Assembly: GCF_012184425.1 (NCBI RefSeq)
Contig: NZ_VTOW01000001.1
Coordinates: 682,001-746,000 of the forward strand
Source: Candidatus Manganitrophus noduliformans
Lineage (GTDB): Bacteria > Nitrospirota > Nitrospiria > SBBL01 > Manganitrophaceae
DNA: 64,000 bases
Reading direction: 5' to 3'
Positions within the stretch are counted from its first letter, which is position 1. Every line of letters begins with the position of its first letter. The position numbers and the translations under genes are program-made. Shown piece after piece: positions 4,388 to 58,589 of the stretch. The notes below the pieces were generated by a model that searched no databases, had not been told where the DNA came from, and worked only from the letters and a program-made list of their open reading frames with translations.

Positions 4388-4759
4388 CTAAGCGGTCTTC
4401 CTTCTCCGCGCCGCTTGCCTCCCCTGACGAGAGAGCGCCCGATGAGAAGCGGCCTGCCGTCCTTCGCGTTTCAGCGCCCGTGTTGTCGCTTGAGAGCGTT
4501 TTGCGGAGGGCTTCCGCTTCCGGCTGCTTTGACTGCTTGTTGATTTCTTCGCGGCCTTTCCCTTCTTCGGAACATTCACTCCGGCGCGCCGCGCCTTCGA
4601 GAGGCCGATGGCGATCGCCTGCTTGGTCGATCGCGCGCCATGTTTTCCCTTTCGGACATGTTCGATTTCTTCTTTGACAAACGGGCCTGCCTGGGTGCTC
4701 GGTTTCTTTCCTTGTCGTTTCGCCTTGCGGGCTTCTTGAACGGTTTTCTTCTCAGGCAT
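4388..4759 (-). CDS. DUF6496 domain protein, lysine/arginine-rich
   Basis: A 123-residue, strongly basic protein (MPEKKTVQEARKAKRQGKKP...). It has a central conserved block (EEIEHVRKGKHGARSTKQAI followed by AIGLSKARRAGV) that I associate with DUF6496, and a C-terminal tail with ALKREGRQAA/ALSRQGRQAA repeats. The ATG at 4759 has AAGGA 8 bases upstream; the ATG at 4768 is too close to it. Function is unknown. The composition suggests nucleic-acid binding, and the tail resembles histone-like or plasmid-stabilisation-type basic tails. Confidence 0.7.
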   Translation of the reverse strand: MPEKKTVQEARKAKRQGKKPSTQAGPFVKEEIEHVRKGKHGARSTKQAIAIGLSKARRAGVNVPKKGKAAKKSTSSQSSRKRKPSAKRSQATTRALKREGRQAASHRALSRQGRQAARRRKTA

Positions 4760-4924
4760 TGTTCTCATCCTTTCATGAAGATGTTTTCCCCCTTGCAAGA
4801 AGGATAACATGAGCGGCGGCTCCTTTTGAAGGGGGGCGCCTCGCGAGGCGGACTCCGATCCATTCAGGATAGTCTTGTTAAGAATAGGCCGATCCGTTAT
4901 GATGCGGTTTAGGAGGACGCGGAC

Positions 4925-7507: not shown

Positions 7508-7508
7508 T

Positions 7509-44468: not shown

Positions 44469-45420
44469 CCGGCGCGACGCCGTCCCCTTCGGGTCGCATC
44501 GGCTCGAGAATCCGCCGAGGCATGTCGGTCTCCTTTTTCTCACCGAGGACATACCGCCGGACCACCCACTCGGCGAATTCGGCAAACTCCTCCGGCACCA
44601 AGGGAGGGCTTGTGTGATGCGGGAGGCGCCCCCGCGAGGGGGGGGTGAAGCAGAGAGTGATCGTCAGCTCGAATTCGGCGAGTTGCGCCATTTGATGATC
44701 GAACCATGCGATGGCGCCGGGCCGGTGCCAATCGGCCCAGCTCAACCCGGTCCGGAGTTTTTTCACCCCCATCCGCCGCAGCCAGGCGACCGCCGATTCA
44801 AGGCGGTGATCCTGAAAGTGAAACCACTGGCAGATCCCCATCTCGGGGTTGAAACAATCGAGCGCCGGTTTCGGCGTGCCGTTGTCCCGAACCAATCCCA
44901 TATAGAAATGCCGATAATATGAACTTCCCTCGCTCTCTTTGTGGCGGGTCGTCGCCTCCCAGGCCGGGGGGAGATCGAGAAGGCTGTACCAGAAGAGCCG
45001 CTCGACTCGACCTAATAAAAGCGCCGCCGTCCGCTGCAATCCAAAGCGTTGAACTTCATCCGCCCCGAAGGTGGAGACCCCCACCTCGGTGACCCAAACC
45101 GGAAGGTCGGTCACCTTCTCGATCGCTTCGATCTTCTTCGGCCACTCTTCGAGTTGCCAGTGATTCCAGTCGAGCGGAAAGCCGTGGACCGCCACGACAT
45201 CGACCGACGCCAGCAAGCCGTGACGGCCGAGAAGGGCGATGAAACTCGGATCGATCGGCGAGATCCCTCCCAACACCCGGCGCAAGGAAGGGCAGAGGGC
45301 GCGCACCCGCTCCGCCGCCGACCGGGTCATCCGCACATACTCCTTCCACTCCGGGTCGATCGTAAAATCCCAATGAGAAAGATTGTTCGGCTCGTTCCAG
45401 AACTTGATCGCTTCGATCAT
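44452..45420 (-). CDS. Beta-xylosidase-like glycoside hydrolase, apparently circularly permuted TIM barrel
   Basis: 322 residues, no signal peptide, so cytoplasmic. The general acid motif FWNEPN is at residues 8-12 (Glu10) and the nucleophile motif WVTEVGVS at 109-116 (Glu112). These are strand 4 and strand 7 elements of clan A hydrolases. The stretch that usually comes first (GVKKLRTGLSWADWHRPGAI, then LTITLCFTPPSRG and FAEFAEWVVRRY) is at 218-290, after the catalytic half. ATG 45420 is chosen; the frame is open to 45483. It may trim xylose from a cluster intermediate. Confidence 0.72.
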   Translation of the reverse strand: MIEAIKFWNEPNNLSHWDFTIDPEWKEYVRMTRSAAERVRALCPSLRRVLGGISPIDPSFIALLGRHGLLASVDVVAVHGFPLDWNHWQLEEWPKKIEAIEKVTDLPVWVTEVGVSTFGADEVQRFGLQRTAALLLGRVERLFWYSLLDLPPAWEATTRHKESEGSSYYRHFYMGLVRDNGTPKPALDCFNPEMGICQWFHFQDHRLESAVAWLRRMGVKKLRTGLSWADWHRPGAIAWFDHQMAQLAEFELTITLCFTPPSRGRLPHHTSPPLVPEEFAEFAEWVVRRYVLGEKKETDMPRRILEPMRPEGDGVAPVRSDR

Positions 45421-45923
45421 CGTTTCGCTCACGCTTGCCCTGCTGCGGGGGAGAATGCAAATCCGACGCCGCTCCTCTTCCATACGGAAGGAGCGCTATT
45501 TTTCCGCTGAAAGAATTTTCCGAGGTGAATGGTTTGTTGAACTCTCTGCAAATCTTTTTCGAATATTGCGGCGATGTAAGCGGGATTGCAGAGACGGTGG
45601 AAGCGGGGAGGCGATACATGACCTCGCGCCATGACAAAATAAATTGTGAGGAGACCCGTTCGATTCTCGGTAGAGGAAGAGGCGTTTTGAACTTCATCTT
45701 TGATTACGGAGGGATCGATTTCGCGTTGCGGCGCTTCTTCGTGTAGTGGGGCTCACATCCTTCTTGTGGACATCCTGTTCATCTTTCTGTTGATAACCTT
45801 TTCGGTCTTTCTCTGTCCCATGCCGTGGTGTCGACATGAAGGTTCGGGGCATGTCTCTTGCTTTTATTTTCGAGCAACTCACAATTTGGATGAACCCATT
45901 TTTAAGAAGGTAAGGAGTCCTAC
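45421..45923. other. Divergent intergenic region, 503 bases
   Basis: Spacer between the minus-strand hydrolase and the plus-strand twelve-gene run. It is visibly more AT-rich than its surroundings. I see no convincing gene. It contains the sigma-54-type element listed separately at 45847-45862. Confidence 0.5.
45847..45862 (+). promoter_or_regulatory. Candidate sigma-54 (-24/-12) promoter of the twelve-gene cluster
   Basis: GGGCATG-TCTC-TTGCT (45847-45862) has the invariant GG and GC separated by exactly 10 bases and otherwise matches TGGCACG-N4-TTGCT at most positions. Transcription would start near 45873, 50 bases before the first gene. An RpoN activator site was not identified. Confidence 0.5.
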
Positions 45924-47042
45924 ATGAAGAAGCAGATCCTCATCAGCGGCGGCGCGGGTTTCATCGGCTCTCATCTGGCCGATGAACTCCTCGCGCACGG
46001 CTATCGCGTCCGCGCCCTCGACAATCTTTCGGAGCAGGTCCACGGCCCCCGCGCGGGGCGGCCCGATTATCTACATCCCGATGTGGAATTGATCGTGGGA
46101 GACGTTCGCGATCGGGCGGCGGTCCGGCGCGCCTTGGAAGGGGTCGATGCGGTCTACCATTTTGCGGCGGCGGTCGGCGTCGGCCAAAGCATGTACGAGA
46201 TCGCGCGTTACACCGAGGTGAACAACCTCGGCACCGCCGTCCTCCTGGAAGCGTTGATCGAGCGGCCGGTGGAGCGGCTGATCGTGGCGTCGAGCATGAG
46301 CTTGTACGGCGAGGGGCTCTACCGGGCGGCCGACGGCCGCCTGATCTCCGAGTCGGAGCGGAGTCTCCCGCAGCTCAAGGCCTCCGAATGGGAGGTCCGG
46401 GATGCCGAAGGTAAAATCCTCGAGCCGATCGCCACGCCGGAGACGAAGCCGCCTTGTCTCTCTTCGGTTTATGCCCTCTCCAAATACGATCAAGAGCGGA
46501 TCTGTCTGATGATCGGGCGCGCCTATCGTTTCCCGGCCGTCGCGCTGCGCTTCTTCAATGTCTTCGGGACCCGGCAGGCCCTCTCCAATCCTTATACCGG
46601 CGTTCTGGCGATTTTCGCCAGCCGATTGTTGAACGGCAATCGGCCGCTGATCTTTGAAGACGGCCTTCAGCGGCGCGATTTCGTCAGCGTCTATGATGTG
46701 GCGCGCGCCTGCCGGCTGGCGTTGGAAGTGCCGGAGGCGGCCGGGGAGGCGTTGAACATCGGAAGCGGCCGCTCTTATACGATTCGGGAGGTGGCCGACC
46801 GGATGGCGGCGGCGCTCGGAAAAGAGGGGATTCAGCCTGAAATCACCGGACAATACCGGGCCGGGGACATCCGGCACTGCTTCGCCGATATCACCCGTGC
46901 CCGAAAGGTCCTCGGGTACGAGCCTCGCGTCACATTGGAGGAAGGGTTGGTCGAGTTGGCGTCATGGTTGAAGGGGCAGGTGGCGATCGATCGTGTTTCG
47001 GATGCCCGCGCGGAACTCGCTGCCCGGGGATTGACGCGATGA
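45924..47042 (+). CDS. NAD-dependent nucleotide-sugar epimerase/dehydratase (extended SDR)
   Basis: 372 residues. GGAGFIGSHLADELL is the NAD loop, ASSMSLYGEG carries the serine region, and YALSKYDQERI gives the catalytic YxxxK. An insert near 150-175 (ESERSLPQLKASEWEVRDAE) is longer than in GalE. The family epimerises or dehydrates nucleotide sugars. It is the first gene of the twelve-gene run; AAGGTAAGGAG precedes the ATG. It overlaps the next epimerase by 4 bases. Exact sugar unknown. Confidence 0.87.
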   Translation: MKKQILISGGAGFIGSHLADELLAHGYRVRALDNLSEQVHGPRAGRPDYLHPDVELIVGDVRDRAAVRRALEGVDAVYHFAAAVGVGQSMYEIARYTEVNNLGTAVLLEALIERPVERLIVASSMSLYGEGLYRAADGRLISESERSLPQLKASEWEVRDAEGKILEPIATPETKPPCLSSVYALSKYDQERICLMIGRAYRFPAVALRFFNVFGTRQALSNPYTGVLAIFASRLLNGNRPLIFEDGLQRRDFVSVYDVARACRLALEVPEAAGEALNIGSGRSYTIREVADRMAAALGKEGIQPEITGQYRAGDIRHCFADITRARKVLGYEPRVTLEEGLVELASWLKGQVAIDRVSDARAELAARGLTR

Positions 47043-48157
47043 TCAACGGAAAAAAGGAACGACCCGTATTGATTACGGGAGGGGCCGGCTTCATCGGGAC
47101 GAACCTTGCGCACCGCCTTCTTCAGGCGGGACACCCGGTGTTGATTTTCGACAATCTCTCTCGGGCCGGGGTGGAGCAGAATCTTCGCTGGCTGCGCGAG
47201 CGGCACGGAAGCCGCCTGCAGGTGACGGTGGCCGACGTGCGCAACGCATTTGCGCTGCAGCGGGCCGTCCGGCAGGCCGCCTCCGTTTTTCATTTCGCCG
47301 CGCAGGTGGCGGTCACGACGAGCCTTGCCGAGCCGATCGACGATTTCGAGGTCAACGCGCGCGGGACGCTGAATCTGCTCGAAGCGATCCGCGTTTTGGA
47401 GAGCCCTCCCCCCCTCCTCTTCACATCGACAAATAAAGTCTACGGCGAGCTGGAGGAGCTCCCCCTCCGGCAGGGGATCAAGCGTTACGAGCCGGAAGCG
47501 CCGGAGATCCGGACCTACGGCATCGGCGAATCCCGGCCGCTCGAATTTCACAGCCCTTACGGCTGTTCGAAAGGGGCGGCCGATCAATACGTCCTCGACT
47601 ACGCGCGCACGTACGGCATCCCCGCGGCCGTCTTCCGGATGAGCTGCATCTACGGCCCGCATCAGTTCGGGACCGAAGATCAGGGATGGGTCGCCCATTT
47701 CATGATCCGCGCGATGGAGAGCCGGCCGATCACCCTCTTCGGCGACGGCCGGCAGGTTCGGGACGTTCTTTATGTCGAAGATCTGATCGACGCATTCCTC
47801 CTCGCTCAGGAGCGGATCGACTTCCTCTCGGGGAAGGCGTTCAACATCGGCGGCGGGCCGTCGAACACGACCAGTCTCTTGGAGTTGATCCATCTGATCG
47901 AAGCCATCGGAGAGAGGCCGCTGACGACGCATTTCGAGCCGTGGCGGCTCGCCGATCAGCGCTACTATGTCTCGGACACCCGCCGATTCCAATCGGCGAC
48001 CGGCTGGTCGCCCCGGGTCGGCGTTGAAAAAGGGGTCCGGTCGCTCTATGCGTGGCTGCGGGAGGCCCGCTCCGAAAAGCCTTCGCTTCGCGGGGCCCGC
48101 GCGCGCAGCGCGTCGCAAATACGAAGCGGACGCGCCGCCGGAAAGGGGGCGGCATGA
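47039..48157 (+). CDS. Nucleotide-sugar epimerase, CDP-paratose 2-epimerase-like
   Basis: 372 residues. The NAD loop is TGGAGFIGTNLA, and TSTNKVYGELEELPL and YGCSKGAADQYV hold the catalytic residues. The stretch CIYGPHQFGTEDQGWVAHF resembles CDP-tyvelose/paratose 2-epimerases. The true start is ATG 47039 (ATGA overlap with the preceding stop); the longer frame upstream is a shadow. Its product would be an unusual hexose, probably an activated donor for one of the five glycosyltransferases. Confidence 0.87.
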   Translation: MINGKKERPVLITGGAGFIGTNLAHRLLQAGHPVLIFDNLSRAGVEQNLRWLRERHGSRLQVTVADVRNAFALQRAVRQAASVFHFAAQVAVTTSLAEPIDDFEVNARGTLNLLEAIRVLESPPPLLFTSTNKVYGELEELPLRQGIKRYEPEAPEIRTYGIGESRPLEFHSPYGCSKGAADQYVLDYARTYGIPAAVFRMSCIYGPHQFGTEDQGWVAHFMIRAMESRPITLFGDGRQVRDVLYVEDLIDAFLLAQERIDFLSGKAFNIGGGPSNTTSLLELIHLIEAIGERPLTTHFEPWRLADQRYYVSDTRRFQSATGWSPRVGVEKGVRSLYAWLREARSEKPSLRGARARSASQIRSGRAAGKGAA

Positions 48158-49467
48158 AGGTCGCGCTGGTCAATCCCCATTGGACCTTCGACGGAAGCAT
48201 CTACTTCGGCTGCCGCGAGGTCCATCTCCCGTTGGAATACGGCTACGCCAAGGCCTTGCTGGAGCGAGAGGGGGCGGAGGTCCTCATCATCGACGGCTTG
48301 GCGGAGGGGCTTTCGCGGGAAGAGATCCGCGCCCGCGCGGCAGCCTTCGCCCCCGATGTGACCGTGATCACCACCGCGCCGAGCTATCTCTTCTGGCGCT
48401 GCGCGCCGCCGGAGCTGCGGGTTCCGATCGAAACAGTTTCCGATCTGCGGCCGGTCGGCGGAGCGTTGATCGCCATCGGCCCGCACGGCTCGACGACCCC
48501 GACGATCACCTTGAAGAAGCTCGGGGTCGACGCCGTGATCCTCGGCGAAGCGGAGGAGATCTTGTCGATTCTCATCCGGAAACCGATCGGGGAGTGGGGC
48601 GAGGTCCCGTCGGTCTGCTACCGCGCGGGAGACCAGATCCGCGTCCAGGGGGGGCCGCATGCCTGCGACATGGCGGCCCTGCCGCCGCTCCGCTGGTCGC
48701 GCGAGAGCCTCGCCCGTCATCCGCACCATCACCACCGGTTCGAGGCCCCTCCCGACGGCCCCGGCGCCGAGATGGAGACCTCGCGCGGCTGCCCCTATCA
48801 TTGCACCTTCTGCGCGAAGGAGAACTTCCGGGACGACTATCGCAAGCGCCCCCTGCCGGTCATCTTGGAAGAGCTCGACGGCCTCATCGAAGCGGGGGCG
48901 ACCTATCTCTACTTCATCGATGAGATCTTCCTCCCGAGCAAGCCGCTCCTGGAAGGGATCGCGGAGCGGGGGATTCGCTTCGGCGTCCAGACCCGGATCG
49001 ATCTCTGGAGCCCGCCGATGCTGGCGCTCCTGGGCCGGGCCGGCTGCGTGTCGATCGAAGCGGGGGTCGAGAGCATCAGCCCGGAGGGGAGGAAGTGGCT
49101 CGATAAGCCGAGCCGGCTCTCCACCGACGAAATCGTCGCGCGTCTGATCGATGCCAAGCGGCAGGTCCCCTTCGTTCAGGCGAACCTCCTCGAAGCCCAC
49201 ATGGACGATCCGGCGGCGATCGAAGCGTGGCGGGAGCGCCTGGCGAAAGAGGGGATCTGGGCAAACAAGCCGGTTCCGCTCTTTCCCTACCCCGGTTCCC
49301 CCGACTATGTCCGCAAATGGGGCCTACCCGACGAGCAGGCGTGGGAGCGGGCGCACGCGCACTATCTTCGAGAGTACGAAGCATTCAGCGATATTCAGGA
49401 CCAACGGCCCATTCCGTTACAGATGCTGGAATCGAATACCGGAGAACACGAAAGGCGGTCGGCTTGA
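48154..49467 (+). CDS. B12-binding domain radical SAM protein of the saccharide cluster
   Basis: 437 residues. Residues 1-145 form a cobalamin-binding-like Rossmann domain (MKVALVNPHWTFDG, IAIGPHGSTTPT near 110). The radical SAM cluster motif CPYHCTFC is at 213-220, followed by IDEIFLPSKPLLEGI and a GVESISPEGR motif near 310. Relatives methylate unactivated carbons or rearrange substrates. It overlaps the preceding gene by 4 bases. I remember this family in TIGRFAMs as B12-binding/radical SAM 'rhizo-twelve system' (TIGR04295, from memory). Substrate unknown; a sugar or cyclitol is inferred. Confidence 0.87.
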   Translation: MKVALVNPHWTFDGSIYFGCREVHLPLEYGYAKALLEREGAEVLIIDGLAEGLSREEIRARAAAFAPDVTVITTAPSYLFWRCAPPELRVPIETVSDLRPVGGALIAIGPHGSTTPTITLKKLGVDAVILGEAEEILSILIRKPIGEWGEVPSVCYRAGDQIRVQGGPHACDMAALPPLRWSRESLARHPHHHHRFEAPPDGPGAEMETSRGCPYHCTFCAKENFRDDYRKRPLPVILEELDGLIEAGATYLYFIDEIFLPSKPLLEGIAERGIRFGVQTRIDLWSPPMLALLGRAGCVSIEAGVESISPEGRKWLDKPSRLSTDEIVARLIDAKRQVPFVQANLLEAHMDDPAAIEAWRERLAKEGIWANKPVPLFPYPGSPDYVRKWGLPDEQAWERAHAHYLREYEAFSDIQDQRPIPLQMLESNTGEHERRSA

Positions 49468-49494
49468 CTCCCCGCCTTCCGTCTTTTGATCTTT

Positions 49495-50631
49495 ATGGCG
49501 ATTCATCATGAAAAAGCGCCCCGCCGCATTTTGATGACGGCCGACACCGTCGGCGGGGTCTGGACCTATGCGCTGGAGCTGGCTCGCGCCCTCGGCCGGC
49601 ACGGCGTGGCGGTATCCCTTGCGACAATGGGGGCGCCGATTCGACCGGAGCAACGGGCCGAAGCCGAAGCGATGCCGAATCTCACCCTTTATCCGAGCGC
49701 GTTCAAGCTGGAGTGGATGGAGTCGCCGTGGGAGGAGGTCGCCCGGGCGGGCGAATGGCTGCTCGATTTGGAGGGGCAAATTCAACCCGATCTGATCCAT
49801 CTCAACGGCTACGCGCACGGGGCGCTCCCTTGGAAAGCGCCGGTCCTGGTCACCGGGCATTCCTGTGTCCTCTCCTGGTGGCGGAGTGTGAAGGGAGAGG
49901 AGGCGCCCGCCGCCTGGGACCGCTACCGTGAAGCGGTTTCGCGAGGGCTGCAGAAGGCCGATTGTGTCGTGGCGCCGACCGGGGCGATGCTCGCAGAGCT
50001 CCGGAAATATTACGGTCCGCTGCGGAGAGACCGCGTGATCCCCAACGGACGAGAGGCCTCGTTCTTTACGGCGCATCCGAAGGAGCCTTTGATCTTCACC
50101 GCGGGGCGGCTCTGGGACGAGGCGAAGAATGTCGCCCTGCTCGACCGGATCGCACACGATCTCCCGTGGCCGGTTTTTGTCGCGGGAGAGTCGCGTCATC
50201 CCGACGGGAAGGAAGTTGCGTTCAACGCCCTCCGGCCGCTCGGCCGGCTCTCCGCGGCCGCGCTCGCCGGCTGGCTTTCGCGGGCGGCGATTTATGTTCT
50301 CCCGGCCCGGTATGAACCGTTCGGTCTCGCCCCTCTCGAAGCGGCGTTATCGGGCTGCGCGCTCGTTCTCGGCGATCCGCCGAGTCTTCGGGAGGTATGG
50401 GGAGAGGCGGCGCTGTTCGTCCCTCCCGATGATCCGGAAGCGCTCCGGGCCGTCCTCCGGCGATTGATCGACGATCCTCTTCTGCGGGAGTCGATCGCCT
50501 GCCGGGCCCGCGCTCAGGCCGACCGTTATACGTCCGACCGGATGGCGGCGGGGTATCTCATGCTGTATCAAAAGATGATCAACGAACAGGAGGCATTTAC
50601 GTGCGGATCGTCCTCTTCTATCACTCATTGA
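49495..50631 (+). CDS. GT4-family glycosyltransferase
   Basis: 378 residues, GT-B fold. The N-terminal domain has RRILMTADTVGGVWTYALEL, typical of GT4 acceptor-side loops. The donor domain has FTAGRLWDEAKN and the PARYEPFGLAPLEAALSGCA motif with the EPFGLxxLEA glutamates near 270. It transfers a sugar from a nucleotide-sugar donor and would act at the inner membrane face or in the cytosol. Its 3' end overlaps the next gene by 31 bases, the largest overlap in the run. Confidence 0.87.
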   Translation: MAIHHEKAPRRILMTADTVGGVWTYALELARALGRHGVAVSLATMGAPIRPEQRAEAEAMPNLTLYPSAFKLEWMESPWEEVARAGEWLLDLEGQIQPDLIHLNGYAHGALPWKAPVLVTGHSCVLSWWRSVKGEEAPAAWDRYREAVSRGLQKADCVVAPTGAMLAELRKYYGPLRRDRVIPNGREASFFTAHPKEPLIFTAGRLWDEAKNVALLDRIAHDLPWPVFVAGESRHPDGKEVAFNALRPLGRLSAAALAGWLSRAAIYVLPARYEPFGLAPLEAALSGCALVLGDPPSLREVWGEAALFVPPDDPEALRAVLRRLIDDPLLRESIACRARAQADRYTSDRMAAGYLMLYQKMINEQEAFTCGSSSSITH

Positions 50632-51713
50632 TCTCGGATTGGAACCACGGGAACGCCCATTTCTTGCGCGGTGTGGCGGGCGAGCTCATCGCGCGCGGCC
50701 ACGAACTTCGCATCTTCGAGCCGCGCGACGGGTGGAGCCTCCGCAGCCTCCTCGCGGAGCAGGGGCCCGCGGCGATTGACCGCTTTCAGCGGGCCTACCC
50801 GGGGCTGCGAAGCGCTTTTTACGATCCGGCCGCGATCGATCTCGATGAAGCGCTCGACGGGGCCGACCTCGTCGTGGTCCACGAATGGAATCCCCCCGAA
50901 CTGGTCGGGCGGATCGGACAACATCGCGCCCGCAGCAGGGGCTACCGGCTTCTCTTCCACGACACCCATCATCGAAGCGTCACCGCGCCGGAAGAGGTGG
51001 CCCGGTACGATCTCGCCCATTACGACGGCGTCCTCGCCTACGGGCGGGTGATCCGCGATCTCTATCTTTCCCGCGGTTGGGCGGCCGCCGCCTGGACCTG
51101 GCATGAAGCGGCCGACACCCGCCTCTTTCGCCCGATTAAGGGGAAGCGGGAGGGGGATCTTGTCTGGATCGGCAACTGGGGGGACAACGAGCGGACCGAG
51201 GAGCTGCACACCTTCCTTTTGGAGCCGGTCAAAGCGCTCGGTCTCAATGCCCGTGTTCACGGGGTCCGCTACCCCGAAGAAGGCCGCCGCGCCCTCACCG
51301 AGGCCGGGATCGGCTATGCCGGATGGCTTCCGAACGATGAAGTGCCGGAGGTCTTCGCCCGCTTCCGGGTGACGGTCCATATCCCGCGGCGGCCGTATGT
51401 TCGGGCTCTTCCCGGCATCCCGACCATCCGCCCCTTCGAGGCGCTCGCCTGCGGTATCCCGCTGATCTCGACCCCCTGGGACGACAGTGAGGCGCTGTTT
51501 ACCCCCGGCGCCGACTTCCTCGTCGCCCGGACAGGGGAGGAGATGAAGCGGCATTTGAAAATGCTCCTCAACGATCGCTCCTCTGCGGAAGCGCTGGCCG
51601 CCCACGGCCGGGTGACGATCCTGGCGCGGCATACCTGCGCCCACCGGGTCGATCAGCTCCTTACGATTTTTGCGGGTCTGAATCTACCAGAAGAAAAGGA
51701 GGTTTCCGCATGA
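50601..51713 (+). CDS. CgeB-like glycosyltransferase (copy 1)
   Basis: 370 residues. GTG 50601 follows ACAGGAGG. The opening RIVLFYHSLISDWNHGNAHF, the central IGNWGDNERTEELHTFL and the donor-site PTIRPFEALACGIPLIS with a DFLVA motif match the CgeB/DUF3880-like GT-B proteins of spore and surface glycan clusters. It is one of four related copies in the cluster. The specific linkage is unknown. It overlaps the next copy by 4 bases. Confidence 0.82.
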   Translation: MRIVLFYHSLISDWNHGNAHFLRGVAGELIARGHELRIFEPRDGWSLRSLLAEQGPAAIDRFQRAYPGLRSAFYDPAAIDLDEALDGADLVVVHEWNPPELVGRIGQHRARSRGYRLLFHDTHHRSVTAPEEVARYDLAHYDGVLAYGRVIRDLYLSRGWAAAAWTWHEAADTRLFRPIKGKREGDLVWIGNWGDNERTEELHTFLLEPVKALGLNARVHGVRYPEEGRRALTEAGIGYAGWLPNDEVPEVFARFRVTVHIPRRPYVRALPGIPTIRPFEALACGIPLISTPWDDSEALFTPGADFLVARTGEEMKRHLKMLLNDRSSAEALAAHGRVTILARHTCAHRVDQLLTIFAGLNLPEEKEVSA

Positions 51714-52813
51714 ACCGGCGGCCCCGGATCGCCTTTTTCGGATCGAGCCTCGTCTCCGCGTATTGGAACGGGGCGGCGACCTACTATCGCGGCATCATCC
51801 GCGCCCTGCACCGGCGGGGCTACCAGATCGCTTTTTATGAGCCGGACGCCTACGGCCGGCAGGCGCATCGGGATATCCCCGATCCGCCGTGGGCCGAGGT
51901 GGTCGTCTATCCCAACCAGGAGGCGGCCGTGGCGAAGGCGCTGGCGCAGGCGCGCGGCGCCGATCTGATCGTCAAGGCGAGCGGCGTCGGGGTCTTCGAT
52001 GAACTTCTGGAGTCGGCCGTGCTTGAAATGCGCGGGCCCGATACGGAGGTGATCTTCTGGGACGTCGATGCCGCCGCCACCCTCGATCGGGTCGGGAAAG
52101 ATCCCGCCGATCCGTTCCGATCGCTCATCCCCCGTTATGATCTGATCTTGACCTACGGCGGCGGCGATCCGGTGGTGCGGGCCTATCGGTCGCTCGGGGC
52201 GCGGGCCTGTGTGCCGATCTACAATGCGCTCGATCCGCAGACGCATCATCCGGTCCCCCCCGATCCGAGGTTCGAAGGGGAGCTCGCCTTTCTCGGAAAC
52301 CGCCTTCCCGACCGGGAGGCGCGGGTTGAAGCGTTTTTCTTCAAAGCGGCCGAAGCCCTTCCGGCCGCCCGGTTTCTCCTGGCGGGGAGCGGGTGGGGGG
52401 ACAAAGGAATGCCGCCGAACGTTTACGCCGTCGGCCATCTCTACACGCGGGATCACAACGCTTTTAACTGCACCCCGCGGGCGGTCCTGAACATCACCCG
52501 GGAGAGCATGGCGCGCAACGGTTTCTCTCCGGCGACCCGGGTCTTCGAGGCGGCGGGGGCGGCGGCCTGTCTGATCACCGATGCCTGGGAAGGGATTGAA
52601 CTCTTCCTCAATCCGGGAGAGGAAGTTCTCGTCGCGCGGGACGGGGCCGATGTCGCCGAGCAGCTTCGGTCGCTGACGCCCGAGCGCGCCCGCGCCATCG
52701 GAGAAGCGGCGCGGCGGCGAATTTTGGCGGAGCATACCTACGCCCATCGGGCGGCGCAGCTGGAGGCGCTGCTCGAAGGGAGAGAAACGGTCCAGACGGG
52801 GGGGATGCCATGA
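51710..52813 (+). CDS. CgeB-like glycosyltransferase (copy 2)
   Basis: 367 residues. It has the opening IAFFGSSLVSAYWNGAATYY, a central LAFLGNRLPDREARVEAFFF, the NITRESMARNGFSPATRVFE donor-site stretch and AAGAAACLITDAWEGIELFL. Same domain plan as the flanking copies. It overlaps both neighbours by 4 bases, so expression should be tightly coupled. Probably adds one residue of the oligosaccharide. Confidence 0.82.
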   Translation: MNRRPRIAFFGSSLVSAYWNGAATYYRGIIRALHRRGYQIAFYEPDAYGRQAHRDIPDPPWAEVVVYPNQEAAVAKALAQARGADLIVKASGVGVFDELLESAVLEMRGPDTEVIFWDVDAAATLDRVGKDPADPFRSLIPRYDLILTYGGGDPVVRAYRSLGARACVPIYNALDPQTHHPVPPDPRFEGELAFLGNRLPDREARVEAFFFKAAEALPAARFLLAGSGWGDKGMPPNVYAVGHLYTRDHNAFNCTPRAVLNITRESMARNGFSPATRVFEAAGAAACLITDAWEGIELFLNPGEEVLVARDGADVAEQLRSLTPERARAIGEAARRRILAEHTYAHRAAQLEALLEGRETVQTGGMP

Positions 52814-53934
52814 GCGGATCAAGGATGTCGATCGTGATCTTCGGCCTGTCGATTACCTCCTCCTGGGGGAACGGACATGCCACCACTTACCGAAGTCTGG
52901 TCCGGGGACTCCGCGCGCGGGGCCATGATTTCACTTTCTTCGAACGAAATGTTCCCTGGTATGCCGAAAACCGCGATCTCCCGCGTCCGCGCCATGGGAG
53001 GTTCGAACTGTATGAGAATCTGGAGGAGCTGAAAGAGCGTTTCACCGAACAGGTCGAAGAGGCCGATCTGGTGATCGTCGGATCGTACGTTCCGCAGGGG
53101 ATTGCGATCGGGGAGTGGGTGACCTCCACCGCGCGGGGGGTGACGGCGTTTTACGATATCGACACCCCGGTGACCCTCGCGAAGCTCGATCGCGGCGAAA
53201 TCGACTACCTCTCCAAGGCGCTGATCCCCCGGTATCACCTCTATCTTTCCTTCACCGGCGGTCCGATTTTAAAACGTCTGGAGCGGGAGTACCGATCGCC
53301 GATGGCCCGGCCGTTGTACTGCTCGGTTGATCCCGATCTTTACTACCCGGAGGAGGCCGAGCCGACCTGGTCGCTCGGCTACATGGGGACCTACAGCCTC
53401 GACCGGCAGGAGACGCTCGATCGTCTATTGATCGAGCCGGCGCGGCGATGGGGCGAGGGATCGTTCGTCGTCGCCGGCTCCAAATATCCCGAAAGCCTCT
53501 CCTGGCCTGCTAATGTCGACCGGATCGAGCATCTGCCGCCGTCAAGGCACCGCGCCTTCTACAACGCGCAGCGGTTTACGCTGAATGTGACCCGGGCCGA
53601 TATGATCCGGGCCGGTTATTCGCCGAGCGTCCGTCTCTTCGAGGCGGCCGCCTGCGCGACCCCGATCATCAGCGATCTCTGGCCGGGGCTGGAGACATTT
53701 TTCAAGCCGGGGGAGGAGATCCTTCTCTCCCGCTCCCCCGAAGAGACCCTCCGCACTCTGCGCGAGATTCCCGAAGAGACGCGGCGCGCCATCGGATTGC
53801 GGGCCTGCGACCGGGTGCTGGCGGAGCATACCGCCGTTCAGCGGGCGGCGGAATTGGAACGGTATGCCTGCGAGATTTTAAATCGCCGCCGGCCGGAGCC
53901 GGAGCCGACCACTTTGGGTAGGGTTGCATCATGA
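52810..53934 (+). CDS. CgeB-like glycosyltransferase (copy 3)
   Basis: 374 residues. The opening MSIVIFGLSITSSWGNGHAT closely matches that of copy 4 at 55890 (LVIFGLTISSSWGNGHAT), so these two are the most alike. The shared core includes ERNVPWYAENRDL, YDIDTPVTLAKLDRGEIDYL, LGYMGTYSLDRQETL and NVTRADMIRAGYSPSVRLFE. 4-base overlaps with both neighbours. Donor and acceptor unknown. Confidence 0.84.
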   Translation: MSGSRMSIVIFGLSITSSWGNGHATTYRSLVRGLRARGHDFTFFERNVPWYAENRDLPRPRHGRFELYENLEELKERFTEQVEEADLVIVGSYVPQGIAIGEWVTSTARGVTAFYDIDTPVTLAKLDRGEIDYLSKALIPRYHLYLSFTGGPILKRLEREYRSPMARPLYCSVDPDLYYPEEAEPTWSLGYMGTYSLDRQETLDRLLIEPARRWGEGSFVVAGSKYPESLSWPANVDRIEHLPPSRHRAFYNAQRFTLNVTRADMIRAGYSPSVRLFEAAACATPIISDLWPGLETFFKPGEEILLSRSPEETLRTLREIPEETRRAIGLRACDRVLAEHTAVQRAAELERYACEILNRRRPEPEPTTLGRVAS

Positions 53935-55280
53935 AGCGTGTGAAACGGGAAGAAAAAGGAGGGGGTCGCGCCATCGCCCCCGCCTCCGGAAAACTCGGTG
54001 TTTTGATTCCGGGGGTCGGCGGCGCGGTCTCGACGACGCTGATCGCGGGGGTTCACCTGATCAACAAAGGGCTGGCGAAACCGGTCGGCTCGCTGACGCA
54101 GATGGAGCGGGTCCGGCTGGGGAAGCGCTCCCGGCCCCGCTGGAAAGGGATCAAGGAGCTCGTCCCGCTCGCCCCCCTGACCGATCTGGTCTTCGGCGGA
54201 TGGGATATCTTCCCCGACGACGGCCATGAAGCGGCGATCAAGGCGGGGGTCCTCCCTGCGGAGCAGTTAAAGGAGGTGCGGGAAGAACTCCGGTCGGTCC
54301 GGCCCCTTCCCGCCGTCTTCGATCCGAAGTTCCTCCGGAATTTGCGCGGCCCTCATGTCAAACAGGGGCGGCGGAAAATCGATCTCGCCGAGGCGTTGAT
54401 GAAAGAGATGGAGGAGTTCAAGACGGCGAACGACCTCTCCCGTCTCGTCATGGTCTGGTGCGGATCGACCGAGGTTTATCAGGAACAGAAAGAAGTCCAC
54501 CGGACGATCGAAGCGTTCGAGAAGGGATTGAAAGAGAACGATCCCGACATTTCCCCCTCGATGATCTACGCCTATGCGGCGATCCGGCTCGGCATCCCTT
54601 ATGTGAACGGGGCGCCGAACACGTCTGTTGAGATTCCGGCGCTCGCCGAGACGGCCAGGGCGCGGATGGTCCCGATCGCGGGGAAAGATTTCAAGACCGG
54701 CCAGACCTTGATGAAGACGATTCTGGCGCCGGGCCTGCGGGCGCGGATGCTCGGGGTGCGCGGGTGGTTTTCGACGAACATCCTCGGCAACCGGGACGGC
54801 GAGGTCCTCGACGATCCCGGCTCTTTCCATGCCAAGGAGGTGACGAAATCGTCGGTTCTCAGCTCGATCCTCGATTCCGGCCTCTACCCCGAGCTCTACA
54901 ACGCGCTCTACCACAAGGTGCGGATCGAATATTATCCCCCGCGCGGCGACGCCAAGGAGGGATGGGACAACATCGACATCTTCGGCTGGATGGGGCAACC
55001 GATGCAGATCAAGATCAACTTCCTCTGCCGCGATTCGATCCTGGCGGCGCCGGTGGTCCTCGATCTGATTCTTTTCATGGATCTCGCCCGGCGGGCGAAG
55101 CTCAAAGGGACGCAGGAGTGGCTCTCGTTTTATTTCAAAGCGCCGATGGCGCGGCCCGATCTCGCCCCGATGCATGACCTCTTCGTCCAACATCTCAAGC
55201 TGACCAACACGCTGCGGATTCTGGCCGGCGAAGAGGTGCTGCATCATTCGGGGCTCGATTATTATGAGGAAGCGGCTTGA
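53931..55280 (+). CDS. Inositol-3-phosphate synthase
   Basis: 449 residues, NAD-dependent. It converts glucose 6-phosphate to inositol 3-phosphate. The Rossmann loop is LIPGVGGAVSTTLIAG (25-40). Core motifs are VNGAPNTSVEIPAL, GKDFKTGQTLMKT and the STNILGNRDG...FHAKEVTKSSVL catalytic stretch near 285-315. The N-terminal 20 residues are basic and extra. Placed within a glycosyltransferase run, it must supply inositol for the cluster product. An unusual 49-base spacer follows it. Confidence 0.92.
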   Translation: MKRVKREEKGGGRAIAPASGKLGVLIPGVGGAVSTTLIAGVHLINKGLAKPVGSLTQMERVRLGKRSRPRWKGIKELVPLAPLTDLVFGGWDIFPDDGHEAAIKAGVLPAEQLKEVREELRSVRPLPAVFDPKFLRNLRGPHVKQGRRKIDLAEALMKEMEEFKTANDLSRLVMVWCGSTEVYQEQKEVHRTIEAFEKGLKENDPDISPSMIYAYAAIRLGIPYVNGAPNTSVEIPALAETARARMVPIAGKDFKTGQTLMKTILAPGLRARMLGVRGWFSTNILGNRDGEVLDDPGSFHAKEVTKSSVLSSILDSGLYPELYNALYHKVRIEYYPPRGDAKEGWDNIDIFGWMGQPMQIKINFLCRDSILAAPVVLDLILFMDLARRAKLKGTQEWLSFYFKAPMARPDLAPMHDLFVQHLKLTNTLRILAGEEVLHHSGLDYYEEAA

Positions 55281-55284
55281 GGGC

Positions 55285-55316
55285 AATTAGGAATGAGGGA
55301 TTACGAATTAGGAATG
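55285..55316. repeat. Short direct repeat AATTAGGAATG in the only repeat-filled spacer of the cluster
   Basis: AATTAGGAATG occurs at 55285-55295 and 55306-55316, with GAGGGATTACG between. It resembles the degenerate AATTAGGAATTACG-type repeats found dispersed in some genomes. It separates inositol-3-phosphate synthase from the phosphatase gene. Confidence 0.5.
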
Positions 55317-55329
55317 GAAGGCAAGAAGA

Positions 55330-55893
55330 ATGGAATTTCACTTCTGTTGGGTCGATGATGAGAAGACGTTGGCGCTGGGGTGTTATCCGACCGATGCCGA
55401 TCTTCGGGTGTTGTTCCGGGAGGGGATCAATGCCGTCCTCAGCCTTCAGGAACACCTGATTGAGGGGGAGCCGGCCATGATGTGTCTTCACGGGGTGCGC
55501 CGCCTCGCCTGGGCCAACGTGCCGATTCAGGACGGCGGGGATGGGGGGTGGGACGGGGTTCCGACCGTCGAGGCATTGGCGGCGGCGGTGGCACAGATCC
55601 GAGCCTGGCACCAGGAGGGACGCCGCGTCTACCTTCACTGCCGCCAGGGGATCGGCCGGGCGCCGACGGTCGCGATCGCCTATCTGATCCTGGCGCGGGG
55701 ATTCCACATTGCCCACGCGATTGCGCGGGTGGTCGAGCGACATCCGGGAAGCGATCCGAGCGTCTACCAGCTCGGGGTCCTGATCGATTATGTCCGGCAG
55801 CGGTATGAGACGGTCCATCAGCGGAGCGCCCTCCGGCCGACGGCTTTTGCGGGCAAAGGGAACGGGATGCAATCGACGGGGAAAACGAAATGA
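55330..55893 (+). CDS. Dual-specificity/tyrosine phosphatase-like protein
   Basis: 187 residues. The PTP loop HCRQGIGRAPT is at 103-113, with nucleophile Cys104 and Arg110. An acidic residue in IQDGGDGGW near 68 may act as general acid. Dual-specificity-type phosphatases can hydrolyse phosphoprotein or phospho-inositide/sugar substrates. Directly after inositol-3-phosphate synthase and without an IMPase gene in the cluster, it may release free inositol or dephosphorylate the glycan intermediate; this is inferred. It overlaps the next gene by 4 bases. Confidence 0.83.
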   Translation: MEFHFCWVDDEKTLALGCYPTDADLRVLFREGINAVLSLQEHLIEGEPAMMCLHGVRRLAWANVPIQDGGDGGWDGVPTVEALAAAVAQIRAWHQEGRRVYLHCRQGIGRAPTVAIAYLILARGFHIAHAIARVVERHPGSDPSVYQLGVLIDYVRQRYETVHQRSALRPTAFAGKGNGMQSTGKTK

Positions 55894-56981
55894 TGCTGGT
55901 GATCTTCGGTCTGACGATCAGCTCTTCCTGGGGAAACGGGCACGCCACCTTCTGGCGCGCCCTCGGCGGCGCCATGGCGCGGCGCGGGGACCGGATTCTC
56001 TTCTTCGAACGGGATGTTCCTTACTACGCCGCGCATCGCGATTTTACCGGCTCGCCCGGCATCGATCTAGTTCTCTATTCCCATTGGGAAGAAGCCTGGC
56101 GGCGGGCGCAGACGGCGTTGAGCGACGCCGATGTGGCGATGGTGACCTCCTACTGTCCCGATGCGGTCGCCGCGTCGGACCTGGTTCTCTCCTCGCCGGC
56201 GCGGCTCCGCGTCTTTTACGATCTCGACACCCCGGTGACGCTGGAGCGGATCCGGGCGGGCGAGCGGGTCGTCTACATCCCCTCCCAAGGGCTCGGCGAT
56301 TTCGATCTGGTTTTAAGTTACGCCGGAGGGGCCGCCCTCACCGAGCTTCAGAAGCGGCTGGGGGCGCGGCAGGTGGCGCCGCTTTACGGCTGCGTCGATC
56401 CATCGGCGCACCGTCCGGTTCCGCCGGTCGAATTTTATCGGGCCGATCTCTCGTACCTCGGCACCTATGCCGCCGACCGGCAGGAGGCGCTCGAGCAGCT
56501 GTTTATCGCGCCGGCGCGGCGGCTCCCGCGCCGGCGATTTGTTTTGGGGGGGTCGCAATATCCGAACGATTTTCCCTGGACCCCCAATCTTTTCTATGTT
56601 CGGCATATCCCCCCGCCCGATCATCCGGTTTTTTACTGCTCGTCGCGGTTGACGCTCAACGTGACCCGCCGGCCGATGGTGGAGAGCGGCTATTGCCCTT
56701 CGGGACGCCTCTTTGAAGCGGCCGCCTGCGGCGTCCCGCTCTTAAGCGACCTCTGGGAAGGGCTCGACCAGTTTTTCGAGCCGGGCACGGAGATCCTGAT
56801 CGCCCGAAGCGCCGAGGAGGCGATCGCGGCGATCGAATCGCCGGAGGAGTGCCTCTCGAAGATCGCCCGATCGGCCCGCGAGCGGGCGCTGTCGGCGCAT
56901 ACCGGGGAGCGCCGCGCCGACGATCTGCATCAGGCGCTGGAAGGGGCGTGCCGTCCCTCGGTCCAAGATGTGACGTTATAG
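55890..56981 (+). CDS. CgeB-like glycosyltransferase (copy 4)
   Basis: 363 residues. LVIFGLTISSSWGNGHATFW at the start, FFERDVPYYAAHRDF, FYDLDTPVTLERIRAGERVV, LSYLGTYAADRQEALEQL and NVTRRPMVESGYCPSGRLFE align one-to-one with copy 3 at 52810, indicating duplication followed by divergence. It is separated from copy 3 by the inositol synthase and phosphatase genes. 4-base overlap with the phosphatase. Confidence 0.84.
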   Translation: MMLVIFGLTISSSWGNGHATFWRALGGAMARRGDRILFFERDVPYYAAHRDFTGSPGIDLVLYSHWEEAWRRAQTALSDADVAMVTSYCPDAVAASDLVLSSPARLRVFYDLDTPVTLERIRAGERVVYIPSQGLGDFDLVLSYAGGAALTELQKRLGARQVAPLYGCVDPSAHRPVPPVEFYRADLSYLGTYAADRQEALEQLFIAPARRLPRRRFVLGGSQYPNDFPWTPNLFYVRHIPPPDHPVFYCSSRLTLNVTRRPMVESGYCPSGRLFEAAACGVPLLSDLWEGLDQFFEPGTEILIARSAEEAIAAIESPEECLSKIARSARERALSAHTGERRADDLHQALEGACRPSVQDVTL

Positions 56982-56998
56982 TGAAGGAGAGGAGACCG

Positions 56999-57802
56999 AT
57001 GTGGGGAATTATCCCGGCGGCGGGGGTCGGAAGCCGCATTCAACCGCTCGCCTTTTCCAAAGAGCTGTTACCGGTCGGGAGCCGGCTCGACGGCGAGGTC
57101 GAGCGGCCCCGCGCGGTGAGCGAGTATCTGATCGAGCGGATGATCCTGGCCGGGGCCGACAAGATTTGTCTGATCATCTCCCCCGGCAAGTCGGACATTC
57201 TGGAATATTACGGCGGCCGTGTCTCCTCGGCGCACCTCTGCTACACCGTTCAGCCCCGGCCCGCCGGTCTCTGCGACGCGATCTTCTCCGCGCTGCCGCT
57301 GATCCACCCGGAGGAGCCGGTGCTCGTCGGGCTTCCCGATACCATCTGGTTTCCGGAGACGGGGCTGGCGCGGCTGCCGGCGGAGGGGCTCTCGTTTCTC
57401 CTCTTCCCGGTGGCGCGGCCCGAGTTCTTCGACGCGGTGGTGACCGACGGGGCGGGAGCGGTTTTGAAGATCGAGGTCAAGCAGCCGAAGCCGTCGACCC
57501 ACTGGATCTGGGGGGCGTTCCGGCTTCCCGGCGGGGTGCTGCGCGATCTCTTCGAGCTTTGGTGCGCGCGGGACCGCCGGGACGAGTATATCGGAACCCT
57601 CGTGAACGCCTACATCGAGCGCGGCGGGGCGGTCCGTGGGGTCCCGGCGGGCGAAGCGTATGTCGACGTCGGAACGATCCACGGCTACCGCGAGGCGATC
57701 AAGCTCCTCAGCGCGCGGGGCGCGGAGCGGATGCGGCCCGGTCTTCGGCAGCGGCCGCAAAAGAGCGATCCGACGGAGACCGATTCGCGGCGGGTCGCTT
57801 GA
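56999..57802 (+). CDS. Sugar-1-phosphate nucleotidyltransferase-like protein
   Basis: 267 residues. The opening MWGIIPAAGVGSRIQPLAFS-KELLPVG is the nucleotidyltransferase G-loop and lysine motif, though GVGSRIQPL replaces the usual GxGTRLxPL. VLVGLPDTIWF holds the metal-site aspartate. Start at 56999 follows GGAGAGGAG. Relatives activate hexose 1-phosphates (NDP-sugars) or inositol 1-phosphate (CDP-inositol). Given the inositol synthase in the cluster, either a hexose or an inositol phosphate may be the substrate. Confidence 0.83.
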   Translation: MWGIIPAAGVGSRIQPLAFSKELLPVGSRLDGEVERPRAVSEYLIERMILAGADKICLIISPGKSDILEYYGGRVSSAHLCYTVQPRPAGLCDAIFSALPLIHPEEPVLVGLPDTIWFPETGLARLPAEGLSFLLFPVARPEFFDAVVTDGAGAVLKIEVKQPKPSTHWIWGAFRLPGGVLRDLFELWCARDRRDEYIGTLVNAYIERGGAVRGVPAGEAYVDVGTIHGYREAIKLLSARGAERMRPGLRQRPQKSDPTETDSRRVA

Positions 57803-57833
57803 AGGTTTCTCTTTGTTGAGGTGAGAAAGCGCA

Positions 57834-58589
57834 ATGAGTCATTCCCGTTTGACGCTCGACGGAAGGTTCACCCCCGATCAGATCCGGCAGCGGGTCCGCG
57901 ATCTCGGTGAGTGGTTTCATAATCTCAATTTGCAGGGGGTCCAGACCGCCCCCGGTCATTTCCTCGGCGATTATCCGATGATCAAGTGGCGCCGGTTCGC
58001 CCATGCGATCCCCGCCGATCTTACCGGACGGTCGGTCCTCGACATCGGCTGCAACGCCGGTTTTTACGCCATCGAGATGAAGCGGCGGGGGGCCGACCTC
58101 GTCGTGGGGATCGACAGCGATGAGGCTTATCTGTCGCAGGCGCGCTTCGCGGCCGAGGTCTGCGGCGTTGATATTGATTTCAGACGGCTCTCGATTTATG
58201 ATGTCCCGACGCTCGGGAGGCGGTTCGATCTGGTCCTCTTCATGGGGGTGCTCTATCATCTCCGGCATCCGCTCCTGGCGCTCGATCTTCTTTACGAACA
58301 TGTCGTCGGGGATCTCCTCGTCTTCCAGACAATGTGCCGCGGCAGCGCGGAGAATGGGCTGCTTGAAGAAGATTACCCCTTCAGCGAGGAGGGGATCTTC
58401 GACGATCCGGCTTTCCCGCGGATGTATTTTATCGAAAAACGATACGCGAACGATCCGACGAATTGGTGGATTCCGAACCGCGCCTGCGCGGAGGCGATGC
58501 TTCGGAGCGCCGGGTTTCAGATCATCGATCATCCCGAGGCGGAGGTCTTCATTTGCCGTCGAGGGACGCCGCCGACAATCAGTGGATAA
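57834..58589 (+). CDS. SAM-dependent methyltransferase of the saccharide cluster
   Basis: 251 residues, class I fold. SAM motif DIGCNAGFYAIEMKRRGA at 70-87 and FDLVLFMGVLYHLRHPLLAL as motif II/III region. The N-terminal LGEWFHNLNLQGVQTAPGHF is a distinctive family feature, also seen in tRNA CmoB-like enzymes. I recall a TIGRFAM for this family (TIGR04290, from memory) linked to the same gene neighbourhood as the radical SAM enzyme. It probably methylates the saccharide or its inositol. It closes the twelve-gene run. Confidence 0.85.
   Translation: MSHSRLTLDGRFTPDQIRQRVRDLGEWFHNLNLQGVQTAPGHFLGDYPMIKWRRFAHAIPADLTGRSVLDIGCNAGFYAIEMKRRGADLVVGIDSDEAYLSQARFAAEVCGVDIDFRRLSIYDVPTLGRRFDLVLFMGVLYHLRHPLLALDLLYEHVVGDLLVFQTMCRGSAENGLLEEDYPFSEEGIFDDPAFPRMYFIEKRYANDPTNWWIPNRACAEAMLRSAGFQIIDHPEAEVFICRRGTPPTISG

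Follow-up and report, generated by a model that had tools for sequence, protein, structure and literature searches.

The mycobacterial methylmannose and methylglucose polysaccharides are cytosolic and O-methylated, and they depend on a compact set of glycosyltransferases, a methyltransferase and a dedicated recycling hydrolase, while the synthesis of mycothiol starts with Ino1, MshA and a phosphatase. A further gene neighbourhood is marked by two families already held in NCBIfam, TIGR04295 (named B12_rSAM_oligo) and TIGR04290 (meth_Rta_06860), and as far as we searched it was previously a set of co-occurring families without a product. Here we analysed 64,000 nucleotides of the genome of Candidatus Manganitrophus noduliformans (Nitrospirota; contig NZ_VTOW01000001.1, positions 682,001 to 746,000; this whole stretch is called the window), where the neighbourhood is formed by a run of twelve genes (45924-58589) and a divergent gene for a predicted glycosidase directly upstream of it.

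The window resembles the NCBIfam neighbourhood in that both marker families score above their curated cut-offs (TIGR04295, 692 bits for a cut-off of 400; TIGR04290, 390 bits for a cut-off of 300), a seven-gene core has the same order and the associated families are present, and it is therefore not new in kind. It differs in carrying a myo-inositol-1-phosphate synthase (MIPS) of the 7nwr type and a dual-specificity-type phosphatase (DSP) in place of a MIPS of the Mtb-Ino1 type and a histidine phosphatase, in its divergent upstream glycosidase and in its host, a Candidatus Manganitrophaceae relative. With the start of the mycothiol pathway it shares a MIPS, a GT4 glycosyltransferase that is weakly MshA-like and a phosphatase in one unit, but there are no MshB/C/D-type families among the twelve proteins, and the match to MshA is confined to the common C-terminal half. 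The mycobacterial methylated polysaccharides would resemble the product proposed below as O-methylated cytosolic saccharides with their own recycling hydrolase, although their glycosyltransferases, methyltransferases and glycosidases belong to other families and they involve no radical SAM enzyme, epimerases or MIPS. The name 'rhizo-twelve', which the initial annotation gave to this neighbourhood, and the accession TIGR04295 were both absent from the open-licence literature that we searched.

We propose that these genes encode a pathway of ancient conservation whose product is a small O-methylated oligosaccharide, soluble and synthesised in the cytosol in response to stress, which a dedicated cytosolic glycosidase would trim or recycle; we give this reading about an even chance. 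New as far as searched are the definition by nine near-obligate genes, the permuted glycosidase with its natural fusion and the link to the EcfG general stress response; the nine-gene definition, a separate inositol module, the EcfG motif and the fusion turn the neighbourhood into a testable pathway.

Conserved core and optional modules

Genome contigs were scanned with the radical SAM protein of the window, yielding 272 relatives, the best 80 of which were retained as loci. Gene content was counted in the 55 loci flanked on each side by 9 kb or more, by clustering of open reading frames (ORFs) and profile searches, and 13 further loci were fetched beyond the first 80 (93 in total). Presence and absence were scored over whole genomes in 289 Alphaproteobacteria of unstated completeness, 13 of them with TIGR04295 above its cut-off (rSAM-positive) and 276 without (rSAM-negative), in a cross-phylum set of 24 core-bearing genomes, comprising six Nitrospirota (the window's own included) and 18 others, and in 245 Nitrospirota genomes, six of which hold the radical SAM family.

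As the initial annotation had stated, the twelve genes all lie on the + strand, and family scans returned the families it had named. The first, EPI1 (45924-47042), is a GalE/LegB-like nucleotide-sugar epimerase or dehydratase of the short-chain dehydrogenase/reductase (SDR) type (PF01370, 175 bits; best PDB match the NAD-dependent epimerase 6wjb, 160 bits). It is followed by EPI2 (47039-48157), an SDR of the CDP-tyvelose 2-epimerase family and a predicted nucleoside diphosphate (NDP)-sugar C2 epimerase (303 bits to 9rl0, 291 bits to 1orr), by the B12-binding radical SAM enzyme (48154-49467; TIGR04295 model positions 1-422 of 422), by the GT4 glycosyltransferase, whose start is uncertain (49486-50631; PF13439, 75 bits; PF13692, 56 bits), and by three CgeB-like glycosyltransferases matching PF13524, namely CgeB1 (50601-51713; 130 bits), CgeB2 (51710-52813; 145 bits) and CgeB3 (52810-53934; 132 bits). 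The remaining genes encode the MIPS (53931-55280; PF07994, 319 bits, and PF01658, 111 bits, both above gathering), the DSP (55330-55893; PF00782, 48 bits, with HCxxxxxR in the translation), CgeB4 (55890-56981; PF13524, 130 bits), an RmlA-like nucleotidyltransferase with an assumed GTG start (56981-57802; PF00483, 39 bits) and the TIGR04290 methyltransferase (57834-58589; model positions 1-226 of 226). The two marker accessions given by the initial annotation were correct. Exactly six junctions are four-base ATGA overlaps (genes 1/2, 2/3, 5/6, 6/7, 7/8 and 9/10), as had been claimed, a layout that supports one expressed unit, and the families argue for the saccharide product that had been suggested. 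A radical SAM gene of 86% identity comes from a Candidatus Manganitrophaceae bacterium, and in a sister genome, which belongs to the window's genus, locus L108 is arranged in the same way with proteins 69-86% identical.

EPI1, EPI2, the radical SAM gene, GT4, CgeB1, CgeB2 and CgeB3 stand in exactly this order in 47 of the 55 loci, as they do in the window (EPI1, CgeB1 and CgeB2 were each found in 55/55 loci, CgeB3 in 54/55). To judge from these loci, gene order and composition are conserved far beyond what chance would give, and the conserved neighbourhood that had been proposed is borne out. The more variable partners near the core are the methyltransferase (31 of 55 loci), the glycosidase (30), a histidine phosphatase (27), an SDR resembling UDP-glucuronate decarboxylase (UXS; 24), a MIPS of either subfamily (20), CgeB4 (17, in 13 of which the nucleotidyltransferase is also present), the nucleotidyltransferase (14) and the DSP (0).

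Whole-genome searches tell partners that are only not close to the core from those that are missing altogether. Among the Alphaproteobacteria, the methyltransferase was found in 13/13 rSAM-positive and 1/276 rSAM-negative genomes (Fisher 1e-21), the latter being one in which a contig starts inside CgeB1, so that its core is probably cut off. The glycosidase was found in 12/13 and 0/276 (Fisher 2e-20); the rSAM-positive genome without a match has its core on a 10-kb contig that is also without CgeB1, and in another the copy has an in-frame stop. In the cross-phylum set all 24 genomes had the glycosidase, although two cyanobacteria showed no more than a partial match within a long ORF, and 23/24 had the methyltransferase; five of the 24 had contributed sequences to the glycosidase alignment, A1, that served as the query. 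From these co-occurrence counts nine genes are near-obligate, namely the two epimerases, the B12/radical SAM enzyme, GT4, three CgeB-like transferases, the methyltransferase and the divergent glycosidase, whereas MIPS with the phosphatase, CgeB4 with the nucleotidyltransferase, and the UXS-like gene are optional. The unit of exactly twelve genes put forward by the initial annotation therefore has to be redrawn, as it joins four optional genes to the core and leaves out the glycosidase. In an Azospirillum genome the optional genes, the methyltransferase and the glycosidase form an operon of their own (L103), on a contig separate from the core.

The distribution had been described as mainly Rhizobiales and Betaproteobacteria; by their titles, the best 80 of the 272 relatives belong instead to Alphaproteobacteria, Acidobacteriota, Myxococcota, Cyanobacteriota and Nitrospirota. 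In a tree of 90 radical SAM sequences, a supported branch separates each of Pseudomonadota, Myxococcota and Cyanobacteriota from all other sequences, and Acidobacteriota need two changes. Nitrospirota copies fall in three places, the window with its sister, two Nitrospira-type sequences beside Cyanobacteriota (92/75), and L105-L107. The G+C content of the cluster (46000-58000) is 62-66%, and 58-63% in three 2-kb steps on either side. A transfer of the cluster into Nitrospirota may or may not have occurred, since the tree and carriage in 6 of 245 genomes are compatible with either.

The initial annotation had suggested a small inositol-bearing oligosaccharide or glycolipid. With inositol as its defining part, this is possible though doubtful for the system as a whole; for the window's organism alone an inositol-bearing product is likely. 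The window MIPS, the single PF07994 match in its genome, resembles the solved bacterial MIPS 7nwr (519 bits), which speaks for a place of inositol in the pathway, as do the two MIPS subfamilies and two unrelated phosphatases that accompany the core in different lineages and the enrichment of MIPS with the core in Alphaproteobacteria (6/13 rSAM-positive against 23/276 rSAM-negative genomes). The 7nwr type is rare in the set, with tblastn matches in 7 of the 80 loci. The other subfamily is carried by 17 of the 20 MIPS-bearing loci, and the member tested, that of L074, belongs to the Ino1 type of Mycobacterium, with 451 bits to 1gr0 against only 207 bits to the five-membered cyclitol phosphate synthase. 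MIPS was also found in 17 of the 19 genomes of a mixed set. Other loci have the histidine phosphatase near the core in place of the DSP.

On the other side, searches for MIPS came up empty in 7 of the 13 core-bearing Alphaproteobacteria genomes and in both of the cyanobacteria searched, and the five core regions that were fetched from genomes without MIPS (L098-L101 and L110) also lack a phosphatase, CgeB4 and the nucleotidyltransferase. This joint absence supports a coupled inositol-phosphate and phosphatase step where MIPS is present, with the qualification that the window's genome holds an unlinked inositol-monophosphatase-family gene and that the histidine phosphatase occurs in 12 of the 35 loci lacking a MIPS nearby. 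With hosts in which MIPS was not found, no single starter explains all of them, and a universal inositol starter was discarded as a rule for all hosts, since some core-bearing genomes have neither MIPS nor phosphatase. With MIPS near the core in 20 of 55 loci, inositol is, as far as gene content tells, a frequent accessory and not the defining feature. The enrichment of MIPS in Nitrospirota (6/6 rSAM-positive and 72/239 rSAM-negative genomes) is weak evidence, as the six rSAM-positive genomes belong to four genera and many rSAM-negative ones hold the gene.

The divergent glycosidase

The gene directly upstream of EPI1, which the initial annotation had missed, lies on the - strand at 44452-45420, with its start taken at Met22 of the ORF 45483-44452. 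Relatives of its product in 18 other loci share 56-65% identity with it (A1). A NEP motif lies about 10 residues from the start, a second invariant Glu (E133, A1 numbering) lies in mid-chain, both Glu residues are invariant in A1, and the C-terminal third resembles the first strands of a GH-A barrel. In enzymes of clan GH-A the Glu of NEP is on strand beta4 and the second Glu on beta7. The AlphaFold2 model of the glycosidase (predicted local distance difference test, pLDDT, 81; predicted template modelling score, pTM, 0.81) has seven strands of at least three residues and a two-residue strand near position 217; these follow one another as in a barrel, NEP being on the first strand and E133 three strands later. 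The protein thus has the barrel and both Glu residues of the clan, as well as a PF11790 score of 22-24 bits (cut-off 21); for GH39, its PF01229 score of 13 bits lies below the gathering threshold of 26.

Comparisons of structure and of re-permuted sequence were less specific. Foldseek gave eight matches with E of at most 0.001, some of them to unrelated barrels or folds, and its matches of probability 1.0 (GH2 beta-glucuronidases, GH128 and GH10) span about half the chain. VIA-align gave whole-chain Z values of 11.7-14.3 to many unrelated TIM barrels, which shows the fold and no family. The re-permuted sequence aligns to PslG (5bx9) in a match that spans the artificial junction, with 27.7 bits and an E value of 1.4e-5, which is suggestive only, and its Pfam score is hardly better than that of the native chain (23.1 against 22.4 bits).

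What decides the matter is a natural fusion. In six of the 13 fetched loci (L098, L099, L100, L101, L105 and L110) a single ORF holds the C-terminal part of the glycosidase profile (within positions 211-316), then its N-terminal part (within 22-213) and then EPI2. This fused form keeps NEP and the second Glu and occupies the same operon slot. Partial glycosidase matches in long ORFs account for six of the 12 glycosidase-bearing rSAM-positive Alphaproteobacteria, and the five of these that were fetched all carry the fused form. Since six natural ORFs hold the halves in the reverse order, an unpermuted barrel exists, fused to EPI2, and on these alignments the fusion, and not the re-permuted Pfam score, is clear proof that the window's glycosidase is a natural circular permutant. 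The permuted barrel and its unpermuted fused relative in the same type of operon provide a clean natural case of circular permutation. Among the open-licence papers listed on this subject, one deals with a permuted GH13 enzyme and none with a permuted enzyme of clan GH-A.

The glycosidase is like PslG and clan GH-A in its WNEPN segment, the Glu of a TEVG segment and the barrel fold, and unlike them in its strand order, beta4-8 followed by beta1-3, and in that no signal peptide was seen. By hydropathy the window's protein has no signal-peptide-like or membrane-like stretch and looks cytosolic. The fold and both Glu residues suggest that it would act as a glycosidase. Both forms can occur together: the genome of L105 (locus coordinates 6972-8882 and 19390-19497) carries an unpermuted glycosidase fused to EPI2 plus a separate permuted one, and the genome of L012 matches both an unpermuted glycosidase in a long ORF and a separate permuted one.

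Promoter motifs and predicted chemistry

The EcfG motif is given as GGAAC-N16-CGTT in Rhizobium etli (PMC3892343) and as GGAAC-N17-20-GTT in Sphingomonas melonis (PMC6599016). Our search for GGAAC-N15-18-GTT covered the 300 nt before the point where the profile of gene 1 matches, from which distances were measured in place of a proven start codon, in the 74 of 80 loci that had 300 nt upstream (six were dropped). The motif was present in 25 of 36 alphaproteobacterial and 0 of 38 other loci, on a background of 166 in 8610 windows of alphaproteobacterial loci, and 16 of the 25 motifs sit 52-67 nt before the match. With each named genus or unnamed metagenome-assembled genome taken once, as sorted by hand, the count is 16/24, where Methylobacterium was scored as a match although L080 and L088 are without the motif. 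The optional module has an EcfG motif of its own in nine loci (L043, L062, L072, L079, L081, L082, L087, L103 and L109), at -66 in the Azospirillum operon L103; where this module leads the whole operon, the motif precedes it in L067 and L068. The block with the fused glycosidase in L101 is without the motif. These motifs suggest that in Alphaproteobacteria the genes may be transcribed under EcfG and may serve survival of stress. Open-licence literature linking the EcfG general stress response to inositol-3-phosphate synthase or CgeB was not found.

Upstream of gene 1 in the window lies a sigma54-like -24/-12 site (45848-45862, + strand, 61 nt before the gene), which is the sole match in the 64-kb window, with 0.07 expected, of GGCAYGNNNNTTGCW, a pattern chosen after the alignment had been seen. 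The site is identical in the sister locus L108. As a similar pattern occurs in 0 of the 38 non-alphaproteobacterial loci, and in none of L105-L107, it appears special to the window's genus. Stress-type genes (Zn-dependent alcohol dehydrogenase (Zn-ADH), DUF1003, BrkB, YflT and SRPBCC) lie in or beside some clusters of Acidobacteriota and Nitrospirota. A stress link may extend to the window's organism. In two Acidobacteriota loci, L022 and L026, BrkB/YihY, SRPBCC/YgaP-like and Zn-ADH genes (and in L026 also DUF1003) are inserted between GT4 and CgeB1.

By its sequence EPI2 is a member of the CDP-tyvelose 2-epimerase family. It matches TaTyvE (9rl0) over the whole chain, and the TNK segment, the SDR Tyr/Lys and the Gln of DQGW are present in the window. 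Among orthologues, S[TS]NK was found in 80/80 and DQGW in 79/80, while the regular expression for the SDR Tyr/Lys (SPYG..K) matched only 49/70. TaTyvE converts CDP-glucose to CDP-mannose and is inactive when its TNK segment carries N125A or K126A (PMC13098431). EPI2 is unlike TaTyvE in that the VAM segment reads VAV in the window and in the glycosidase domain that is fused to it in six loci.

All 90 radical SAM orthologues hold CxxxCxxC and GPHxSxTP. In Foldseek the AlphaFold2 model of this enzyme (pTM 0.88) matches TsrM, MgmA, OxsB and AprD4 from end to end, AprD4 in a structure with paromamine bound; the predicted two-domain fold would be the same across the whole chain, but identity is only 16-20%. 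A further motif, HHHHRF at residues 191-196, is present in 87/90 orthologues.

The methyltransferase is nearest to CmoB (63 bits) and then to EvdMO1 (50 bits), an everninomicin enzyme. PDB matches of GT4 are weak (6kih, 44 bits; PimA, 39-40 bits; MshA, 35 bits), and an MshA-like use of inositol phosphate by GT4 finds no support past the common C-terminal half, to which the similarity to MshA is limited. The CgeB profile search returned no informative solved relative.

Candidate pathway, export and neighbouring genes

The gene set, its co-inheritance, the families and predicted folds, the promoter motif, the permutation and the fusion suggest a candidate pathway, whose order of steps, product, cytosolic location and role in stress we infer, above all for the window's organism. 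EPI1 and EPI2 would supply epimerised nucleotide sugars, and EPI2, given its family and kept catalytic residues, may invert C2 via a 2-keto intermediate, as in the conversion of CDP-glucose to CDP-mannose. GT4 and three CgeB-like transferases would then build a chain of about four sugars. The B12-radical SAM enzyme, whose class is clear, would modify a sugar by C-methylation, epimerisation or deoxygenation, and the TIGR04290 enzyme would O-methylate the product, whose chain the permuted glycosidase may cleave or remodel. In many hosts, including the window's, MIPS and the phosphatase would supply inositol or inositol phosphate, and the nucleotidyltransferase and CgeB4 would supply and add one more sugar. 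In Alphaproteobacteria, where the motif precedes many of these operons, the genes would be transcribed under EcfG and the product would serve survival of desiccation, heat or osmotic stress.

A broader version of this pathway, which we put forward tentatively and think more apt to fail than to hold, is a previously undescribed general-stress metabolite of at least five phyla, namely an O-methylated oligosaccharide of the cytosol in which one sugar is modified by radical chemistry, inositol-capped in many hosts, whose pool is controlled by the permuted GH-A-like glycosidase, an enzyme that some lineages would still have in unpermuted form as part of the pathway's C2 epimerase. If true, such a saccharide would join trehalose-type solutes and exopolysaccharides as a third class of stress saccharide.

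Several observations weigh against the cytosolic stress oligosaccharide. No EcfG motif precedes gene 1 in 11 of the 36 alphaproteobacterial loci (one of which, L067, has it before the upstream lead gene), the optional module in L053, L059, L074 and L084, or the methyltransferase gene where it stands alone (L098, L101 and L110), and in the window no GGAAC was seen by eye in the 300 nt upstream of gene 1. The classic DxHxxG cobalamin motif was matched by regular expression in only 22 of the 90 radical SAM orthologues, and the substrates of GT4 and of the CgeB-like proteins are not readable from sequence. To the 7 of 13 core-bearing Alphaproteobacteria in which MIPS was not found is added an unlinked inositol-monophosphatase-family gene in the window's genome, because of which the role of the DSP is not forced. 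Finally, an exporter of the ATP-binding cassette (ABC) type adjoins the glycosidase in three loci and could mean that the product is exported.

Export is the main rival to a cytosolic product: the genes would make an envelope glycan or glycolipid, such as a capsule-like oligosaccharide or a lipid head group, that leaves the cell through this exporter or one like it. We regard this as unlikely. The EcfG-dependent genes described for S. melonis include three glycosyltransferases and an exopolysaccharide gene (#3506-#3509; PMC6599016), which fits an exported glycan. In the window the exporter (42666-44468, + strand; PF00664/PF00005, with a transmembrane and a nucleotide-binding domain) lies between the UXS-like gene and the glycosidase; L108 has this exporter as a neighbour too (79% identity), a homologue of 62% identity lies directly after the glycosidase in L050 (Polyangiaceae), and further full-length ABC genes of 29-39% identity occur in L015, L020, L025, L045 and L057. 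Such a close homologue is, however, near few of the loci, and export of the product by it is possible in some lineages. The core is without Wzx/Wzy, a priming transferase or a membrane anchor. Family scans of the twelve proteins found no flippase, polymerase or undecaprenyl-phosphate transferase, as had been noted before, and they therefore do not resemble a Wzx/Wzy- or ABC-dependent O-antigen or capsule system; in the hydropathy scan no 19-residue window exceeded 1.9 in any of them or in the glycosidase. The glycosidase, cytosolic-looking and co-occurring with the core, likewise argues against export.

MIPS, a phosphatase, glycosyltransferases, a B12/radical SAM enzyme and a methyltransferase are also the toolbox of glycosylated cofactors and specialised metabolites, but a pseudo-oligosaccharide (aminocyclitol- or orthosomycin-like) or an oligoglycosylated redox cofactor (mycofactocin-like) is improbable here, for although the radical SAM fold resembles AprD4 among others and the methyltransferase resembles EvdMO1 and weakly matches the NCBIfam family of the mycofactocin methyltransferase MftM (21 bits), there is no aminotransferase among the twelve, and an order kept across five phyla with a stress promoter is unlike the variable antibiotic clusters.

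Two further genes upstream of the exporter recur near the core. The UXS-like SDR (41403-42452, + strand), labelled by eye and matching PF16363 and PF01370 only, scores 570 bits to a profile made from cluster copies, itself included, and is 86% identical over the part present in the sister genome. In that genome, L108 also encodes an extra protein of some 426 residues that resembles a multi-transmembrane transporter (by eye, Nramp-like; about 3660-4940, minus strand) between the phosphatase and CgeB4, which is not in the window. The second gene (39370-41148, + strand) encodes a 592-residue protein without a Pfam match, in which a phosphoribosyltransferase-like motif was seen by eye; its profile matches 14 other loci of the 93, at 36-43% identity, and in Mesorhizobium its homologue is located between the UXS and MIPS genes.

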